A DNA stretch of 64,000 nt from Chthonomonadales bacterium (lineage in GTDB: Bacteria; Armatimonadota; Chthonomonadetes; Chthonomonadales; CAJBBX01). Positions 33,120 to 42,004 of the stretch are shown here, one piece after another. The stretch spans positions 62,001 through 126,000 of the forward strand of contig DAIDHP010000003.1 in NCBI GenBank assembly GCA_027459625.1. Reading direction: 5' to 3'. Numbering within the stretch: the stretch's first letter is position 1; each line of letters opens with the position of its first letter. Position numbers and translations under genes: made by a program. The notes under the pieces were generated by a model. It did no database searches. It was not told the DNA's origin and saw nothing but the letters and a program-made list of their open reading frames with translations.

Positions 33120-34487
33120 ATGAAAACCAATCCGTCACTTACTGAGAATAGTGACATCAAATCGCCGCAAATCGCAAATCCTCACACAACGGGTCTTGCG
33201 GCTCTAAGCGCATTACTGGCAACATTCAGTCTTCCTCCGTTTGGTTTCAAGGCGCTCGCTTTCCTCGCGTGGATTCCTCTATTCATTATTATTCGCAAAG
33301 GTTCGATGCGGCAATCCTTCTATTTCGGGATGTTGCAGTGGTTTCTCTTTTACGGATCCACTCTGATTTGGTTAACCCCATATTCGGTCTGGCGGCGATA
33401 TCGCTTTTCGCCATCCTCGCGTTTTTCTCCGCACTGTTATGCCTCATTGGATGCGCTTTGAAAGAGCGTATGCGTTCCCCTTTGCTTGATGCGATGTTGA
33501 TGGCGACATTATGGACAGGCATCGAATATTGTCGTTCCGAATGGTTTCCTTTGCACTTTTCGTGGGCGACTCCGGGCATGGCTATCGGCCCGGACTGGTG
33601 CACCCCTATCTAGGTGCTTATGGTGTGAGCTTTCTCGTTGTTTTCGCCTGCGTGTTATTTTCCAGGATTCAGGAAATACCGTTATGTAATCGGATCATCG
33701 CGGTTCTTGTCTGCATTTTACTTTATTTCCCCTTACCGAAAAAATATCCGGTAAATCCAGTCAAAGTAGTGGCAATTCAGAACGAGGACGCTCCCTTGGA
33801 GGATTACATAACAGCGACACGCAAATGGAGGTTCCATCACCCAGCATTCGTGGTATGGCCGAAATATGCTTTGCCCGAGGATATTAGGCGAGTGTATACG
33901 GACGGAAATAAGATAATGCAAATGGTGCGAGATATGAAAACAGTTCTCGTCTTTGGCACCAGAACGGATACAGGGAACCGGCAAGGAGACTGGAGAAACA
34001 TCGCGCTTGTCGTTAATCCACTGGGCGAACTTGGGCGTGTTTATAAAAACCGACCGGTTCCGCTATTTCAGGAAGGTATACCGGGTTCTCACGCGTATCC
34101 CATATCCACGCCCCTTGAAACTATCGGAACGCCAATATGCTTCGACAACGACTTCGAGGAGATTGATCGTAAAATGGTGGCGAAGGGCGCTCAATTGTTG
34201 CTTGCCCCCAGCATGTATGAAGCATCATGGTCACGCGAGGAGCATCTTCAGCATGCGCTTCAATTCCGTTCCGTCTTAGCGCGGCCGAGAACGGGAGATG
34301 GATGCTGGAGGCGTCCAGTTCAGGGCTGACGGAGATCATTGATCCAAATGGCAGAATGCACAGTTTCCTTCCAATGATGCAACCCGGGATGATAGGGGGA
34401 GAGGTCGAGATGATTAGCGCAAGAACGTTTTCAACAATATCGGTTGGATATGGGGGCCAGTATGATTCTTCATTAGCATTATTCTGA
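33120..34487 (+). pseudogene. lnt: Apolipoprotein N-acyltransferase remnant with three frameshifts and a lost catalytic Glu
   Basis: Three successive frame changes are needed to read one Lnt protein of about 457 residues. Frame A gives the membrane segments (LPPFGFKALAFLAWIPLFIIIRKG). The frame shifts near 33386, then near 33590, then near 34280, each time as if one base were lost at or beside a G or C run, so the net loss is three bases. The nitrilase domain keeps the Lys (GRVYKNRPVPL) and Cys (GTPICFDNDF) of the Glu-Lys-Cys triad. The normally invariant WPE is WPK (AAA at 33862-33864). Lnt adds the third acyl chain to outer-membrane lipoproteins. This copy should be inactive unless the sequence is in error. 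Confidence 0.85.
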
Positions 34488-34643
34488 TTACTGGCTCGCA
34501 TATCTGGATGGGCTTGCAGAGTATTGCAAGGGGGTTATCTCACGTTTAGAGGCGATTATCACACTCAAAGACGTAAATCCCCTTTTTTGACATCATGTTC
34601 ATCATGAAATCATGTTGAAAATATGTTCGGCGGGAAGGAGTGG

Positions 34644-40483: not shown

Positions 40484-41905
40484 CTACTTCTCGCTCGGAC
40501 GCATCATGTTCAGGTATCTCGCTCTTTGAAGCGTAAGATCCACGATGGGAAGGGGGAAAGTTCGTCCAAGGATCACTCCGTATTTCATTTGATCGTCATG
40601 TGGTATCACCCATGGTTTGTGAATGAGTGAAGATGGGATATTGTTTAACTCCGGTAGGTATCGCTTTACGTAGGTTCCATCCGCGTCAAACTTCTCGCCT
40701 TGAAGAGTGGGATTGAAAATTCGAAACCAAGGTTGCGCATCCGTACCGGTGGACGCCGCCCATTGCCATCCGCCGTTGTTGCATGCAATATCACCGTCGG
40801 TTAGATGATTCATAAAATGTTTCTCGCCGACACGCCAGTCCGTAAAAAGGCTTTTGGTCAGGAATGAGGCTGTAATCATACGCACGCGATTATGCATCCA
40901 TCCCTCCTGAAGAAGTTGACGCATGCCTGCATCCACAATGGGGTATCCCGTCTCCCCTCGCCGCCATGCCTCGATCAACGTTTGATCGTTTTCCCAAGGG
41001 ATAGTATTTCGTCTCTCCTTGAAATCGCTTGAAAGAACATGGGGAAAATGACGGAGGATGGAATAATAGAAATCTCTCCATGCGATTTGCCTCAGGAAAA
41101 CCGCAGCGGGTGAGATTGCACCTCCCATTGCGCTGTTTTGCTCTTTCAGACACCTCCATGCCACAACCCTTGGCGAAACGGCTCCCAGGTTCAAGAAAGC
41201 GGATAAGCGAGAGGTGCCCTCAATGCCGGGATGATCGCGATGAGAGGGGTATTTTTCAAGCTTTTTTTCAAAAAAAACATCCATTGTATTTAATGCGGCC
41301 ATCTCCCCGGCCTCGTTGACGGAAGCGTTGATTGGCGTAGGAATATCATTTTCCATGATCTTGGCAAGATTAACGGGCGAAGAGATATTATGCGGACTTG
41401 GCAGTGGTTGGGATATATGCAGTCCGCTCCATGCTCTGTAATAAGGACTGAATACCGTGTAGGGAGCGCCGCTAGGCTTGAACACTTCTCGCATACGGTG
41501 CACTGTCAATCCGTCCGAGGGTATCATCCTCACGCCGTTATCCCTGGCCCATGACGAAACTCTCGTTTCCAATGCGATTTCATTGGGTTCGACTTGCTCC
41601 TGATAATAGATCGCTTCGAACGGCAGGATATTTTTTATCATTGTGAAAAGATCGGTTGGCTCTCCAGAGAGAATCACCAATCGGGTTCCACAAGCATCAA
41701 GCTGTTGATCCAATGCCCAGAGGCACTTTTCAATAAGCTGACGCTTTCCTGGCGAGATGGTGAAAGGAGGTGAATTGGGGTTATCCCGTATGTATATGGG
41801 AATTACATCATTCGATTCTTGAACGGCATTCCATAACGAGGGGTTATCATGCAATCTCAGGTCACGACGAAACCATACGATGGATATTCGGAAATGCTCA
41901 TCCAT
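40484..41905 (-). CDS. phr: Deoxyribodipyrimidine (DNA) photolyase
   Basis: I start at ATG 41905, preceded by CGGAGCGAGATC; the frame runs further upstream through the tRNA and is not real there. The 473-residue protein has the photolyase N-terminal domain (IVWFRRDLRLHDNPSLWNA), an antenna/linker region, and the FAD domain with GTSRLSAFLNLGAVSPR, WRDFYYSILRHFP, GYPIVDAGMRQLLQEGWMHNRVRMI and NGGWQWAASTGTDAQPWFRIFNP. The last block, with W, NGGWQW and DAQP, is diagnostic of class I CPD photolyases. It repairs UV dimers using light. The start lies 26 bases after the tRNA-Ala gene on the same strand. Confidence 0.95.
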   Translation of the reverse strand: MDEHFRISIVWFRRDLRLHDNPSLWNAVQESNDVIPIYIRDNPNSPPFTISPGKRQLIEKCLWALDQQLDACGTRLVILSGEPTDLFTMIKNILPFEAIYYQEQVEPNEIALETRVSSWARDNGVRMIPSDGLTVHRMREVFKPSGAPYTVFSPYYRAWSGLHISQPLPSPHNISSPVNLAKIMENDIPTPINASVNEAGEMAALNTMDVFFEKKLEKYPSHRDHPGIEGTSRLSAFLNLGAVSPRVVAWRCLKEQNSAMGGAISPAAVFLRQIAWRDFYYSILRHFPHVLSSDFKERRNTIPWENDQTLIEAWRRGETGYPIVDAGMRQLLQEGWMHNRVRMITASFLTKSLFTDWRVGEKHFMNHLTDGDIACNNGGWQWAASTGTDAQPWFRIFNPTLQGEKFDADGTYVKRYLPELNNIPSSLIHKPWVIPHDDQMKYGVILGRTFPLPIVDLTLQRARYLNMMRPSEK

Positions 41906-41931
41906 GATCTCGCTCCGTTGAGAAAGAGGAA

Positions 41932-42004
<73 letters not shown>

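Follow-up and report, generated by a model that had tools for sequence, protein, structure and literature searches.

The Lnt-like gene that starts with the ATG at position 33120 of the window (the whole stretch of 64,000 nucleotides analyzed here, from a member of the Armatimonadota, whose numbering is used below) is broken into several reading frames. This raises the question of whether the lineage has lost lipoprotein N-acylation, whether undercalled bases have disrupted an otherwise intact gene, or whether a spare copy is decaying. Judged from its sequence, the gene is in all likelihood a pseudogene that lost its function recently and that derives from a non-essential Lnt paralogue, an arm-less Lnt that was named Lnt2.

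Fragments and lesions of the Lnt-like gene

The lesions were called by alignment to one sister orthologue (L034; another species of the same genus), with which the window gene shares 85% DNA identity. This orthologue was found at the same place, adjoining glmS, in the metagenome-assembled genome G001 (JAJZOL010000003.1, contig coverage 3.7x). Its ORF comprises 425 open codons with an intact Glu-Lys-Cys triad, and both LNT_N and CN_hydrolase were detected above the Pfam cut-offs. Within L034, at 1673-1770, a one-base difference (GGTTCTC vs GATTCCTC) throws the first ~50 N-terminal codons out of frame, which may be either an error, given the coverage, or the first step of decay.

The ORF listing and the alignment to the sister confirmed that the window gene is broken, as the earlier note had described; reading passes through four successive frames, and the wreck spans 33120-34549 (1.43 kb), that is, up to the ancestral stop and not to 34487 as had been proposed. 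Its fragments match LNT_N (own-genome search) and CN_hydrolase (Table 1).

Table 1. Fragments of the window gene and lesions called against the sister orthologue (window numbering).
Feature	Position	Strand	Evidence or remark
Fragment a: membrane segment at the N-terminus (LNT_N), frame 0	33120..33377	+	ORF listing; alignment to sister L034; LNT_N match in own-genome search
Fragment b: remainder of LNT_N, frame 2	33380..33601	+	ORF listing; own-genome search
Fragment c: CN-hydrolase domain, frame 1	33604..34266	+	Pfam CN_hydrolase, E=2e-7
Fragment d: C-terminal portion of CN-hydrolase domain, frame 0; near-invariant Arg replaced by Ser	34274..34431	+	
Fragment e: membrane helix at the C-terminus, with the ancestral stop (TAG, 34547-34549), frame 2	34433..34549	+	Alignment to sister
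Lesion 1: single-base loss	33376..33379 (~33378)	+	Sister ACCCGCAT, window ACCCCAT
Lesion 2: run of 5 C residues reduced to 4, one base lost	33603..33606	+	
Lesion 3: tandem duplication TTCCG/TTCCG, +5 bp	34264..34273	+	
Lesion 4: one base lost after TTTT	34431..34432	+	
Lesion 5: in-frame nonsense codon TGA	34463..34465	+	Sister TGC
Catalytic Glu codon (E. coli E267), GAA to AAA (Lys)	33862..33864	+	Sister GAA

Four frame-breaking indels were thus recognized. They do not correspond to the three single-base losses beside G/C runs that had been reported from the letters alone, as the third of them is the 5-bp duplication and a fourth, again a loss of one base, had been missed; consequently, the net length change is +2 and not -3. 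It is nevertheless true, as had been noticed, that all of the frame changes go in the same direction, since +5 equals -1 modulo 3 and each of them steps alike. For lesion 3, the length of the family members favors the unduplicated state as the original one, whereas the run of four C residues at lesion 1 results from the loss itself.

The replacement of the catalytic glutamate by a single G-to-A change was likewise corroborated: the WPE motif reads WPK in the window (TGG CCG AAA, 33856-33864), and Glu is present at this position in all 33 relatives compared. Both the window and the sister copy retain YKNRPV (catalytic Lys, K335) and PICFD (catalytic Cys, C387), the latter with CFD, not CYE, at the E389 position. 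Among residues conserved in at least 95% of the family, the window copy lost three (G to W, the catalytic E to K, and R to S) and the sister substituted none, although these are small numbers.

Elsewhere in the window, a tRNA gene (41932-42004, minus strand) overlaps the 5' end that was mechanically assigned to a photolyase-like ORF (40484..41989), and the true start of this ORF therefore lies downstream.

Decay of the gene and the alternatives to it

Homopolymer undercalling, which had been considered as a cause of the frame changes, was confronted with 14 further window genes, 19.6 kb in all, compared with the same sister contig. These contained no internal indel, and none of their 297 homopolymer runs of at least four bases was affected. 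The difference between four indels in 1.43 kb and zero in 19.6 kb of the same contig pair is significant (Fisher p = 2e-5), as is the difference per homopolymer run (3 vs 0; p = 3e-4). It is true that one lesion is a shortened C run, and that the single breaks in the sister and in another family member, L041 (G010:C161, about 1762, minus strand; a single in-frame TAG separating the membrane part of Lnt2 from its catalytic domain), could be errors. However, this is the only lesion resembling a run contraction, two of the three -1 events being of another kind, and neither the 5-bp tandem duplication nor the nonsense substitution nor the three near-invariant missense changes can be undercalls. 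Taken together with the clean neighboring genes, they leave homopolymer undercalling without explanatory power, and a sequencing or assembly error that breaks an otherwise intact gene is highly improbable; as far as can be read from the sequence, the decay is real. There is also only a slim chance that the CN-hydrolase part (33511-34329) is still expressed in a new, non-catalytic role. Its 272-codon frame is indeed open and gives the CN_hydrolase match listed in Table 1, but the catalytic Glu and the near-invariant Arg are gone, the C-terminal part lies in another frame, and the conserved sites changed faster in the window than in the sister.

The third alternative is that the lineage has lost lipoprotein N-acylation, as the earlier note had supposed it might have, since the window copy cannot encode a full-length enzyme. 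Against it stands an intact canonical lnt on another contig (G000:C39), which encodes 523 aa with WPES, KNWLVPFGE, and ICYE and scores 265.9 bits in NCBIfam lnt (cut-off 132.9), as well as one intact copy each of lgt and lspA, side by side on contig C82. Given these three genes, lipoprotein N-acylation is very probably kept in this lineage, and the probability of its loss is next to negligible. The other option raised at the outset, namely the presence of another Lnt, was therefore the right one, and the identification of the broken gene as lnt held in part: it is Lnt-like, but it is a divergent paralogue without the 345-365 arm and not the canonical lnt. As an intact canonical lnt resides elsewhere in the genome, the loss of the window copy is ordinary gene decay; a misleading signal of N-acylation loss gives way to the simpler account of a decaying spare paralogue, probably acquired horizontally.

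The pairwise dN/dS, which is one figure for both branches together, amounted to 0.20 (bootstrap 0.13-0.27) for the window and sister genes, compared with 0.11 for the canonical lnt. This value suggests that the gene was constrained through most of the divergence and that its inactivation is probably recent. Neutral decay throughout the time since the species split was ruled out, the dN/dS being too low for it. In the tree, the branch of the window fragment (0.16) is longer than that of the sister (0.02), and the polarized changes in Lnt2 overall (17 vs 8 to 11) are suggestive only; the canonical Lnt shows no such skew or excess in the window genome (branches 0.055 vs 0.13; polarized changes 16 vs 19).

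Similar cases were described in Actinomycetota. Streptomyces scabies carries a second Lnt (Lnt2) beside the functional one, reported as subsidiary and inessential (PMC3850990), and in M. tuberculosis a second Lnt homologue is divided over two ORFs, Rv2262c/Rv2261c (PMC3850990). We liken both of them to the window gene by their description; the S. scabies protein comes from a different phylum. In M. tuberculosis too, the frame is divided while the main Lnt is kept, although that independent case involves two ORFs and the window gene five fragments. In the light of these parallels, it is not a new kind of event for a spare Lnt homologue to decay.

The arm-less Lnt2 clade and its origin

Phylogenetic trees placed the window and sister gene in a clade apart from the canonical Lnt, comprising the loci L034, L037-L044, L048, L051-L077, L081, L085, and L088, with representatives in Verrucomicrobiota, Planctomycetota, Sumerlaeota, Armatimonadota, and Cyanobacteria. 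The fold, domain order, and membrane topology of the canonical Lnt (TIGR00546, PF20154 and PF00795; E. coli 5N6H) are the same in the sister and the clade, and so is the Glu-Lys-Cys triad; the window copy differs from the canonical enzyme in having lost both the catalytic Glu and the open frame. In agreement with this, when L051, an intact relative, was modeled with AlphaFold (pLDDT 96, pTM 0.93), the model matched the Lnt crystal structures at TM 0.79-0.84. The clade is nonetheless sharply defined. In the core members with a readable site, the catalytic Lys and Cys are spaced by exactly 31 residues, whereas in canonical Lnts of the same phylum the spacing is 49-60; where the latter have VPFGE (with VPYGE and VPMGE as rare variants) and C[YF]E, the clade has VHFFxDG-like and C[FY]D motifs (CFD in the copies described above).

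The stretch absent from the clade corresponds to the 345-365 arm of E. coli Lnt. This arm is mobile, with the essential E343 at its joint, and was proposed to restrict access to the N-termini of apolipoproteins (PMC6971011). Besides the triad, W237, E343, Y388, and E389 are essential in E. coli Lnt (PMC3850990), and of these both E343 and E389 are lacking in the clade, together with the arm. Nevertheless, NCBIfam scores the clade as lnt, in part above the cut-off (L034 and L037 above; L048 and L044 below), and automated annotation may thus overcount Lnt.

The intact ancestor of the window gene would have been a periplasm-facing Cys acyl-enzyme of the inner membrane, taking an acyl chain from a phospholipid as a thioester in an Lnt-like manner. 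Having no mobile arm to gate the entry of apolipoprotein, it probably used another acceptor or played an auxiliary role. Once it was dispensable, the window lineage would have gained the frameshifts and the nonsense codon and lost the catalytic base, with the canonical Lnt presumably continuing lipoprotein N-acylation. The patchy presence of Lnt2 in the order of the window organism fits such dispensability. Among the other relatives, the G018 match also contains one TAG.

Concerning its origin, the sister gene groups with Verrucomicrobiota-type members (support 100/98.9), apart from other Armatimonadota Lnt2 genes, and the window fragment sits beside it in the tree. Vertical descent with the other Armatimonadota Lnt2 genes was rejected (AU test p = 0.007), with the long branch calling for caution. 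With the same caution, the simplest reading of this grouping is horizontal transfer; it suggests that the genus acquired Lnt2 horizontally and that the window lineage then lost it recently.

A further LNT_N gene, i.e., a second Lnt, was present in 14 of the 15 non-Armatimonadota genomes checked that carry a clade member. Widespread arm-less paralogues would accompany the canonical Lnt and acylate something other than standard apolipoproteins, a proposal that we put forward tentatively and regard as somewhat doubtful. The arm-less clade appears uncharacterized, and our literature search yielded no paper that deals with a second Lnt from Verrucomicrobia or Armatimonadota. It is this clade that is worth pursuing, its acyl acceptor being a testable question, whereas the pseudogene itself is ordinary. 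No conserved gene neighborhood hinting at the function of Lnt2 was found, as the recurring neighbors, Lnt2 itself aside, were limited to shadow frames that overlap it and to other CN hydrolases. Near the G004 Lnt2, about 1.5 kb away on the opposite strand, there is an extra CN-hydrolase-like frame (L037 5765-6757, minus strand), which is possibly unrelated.
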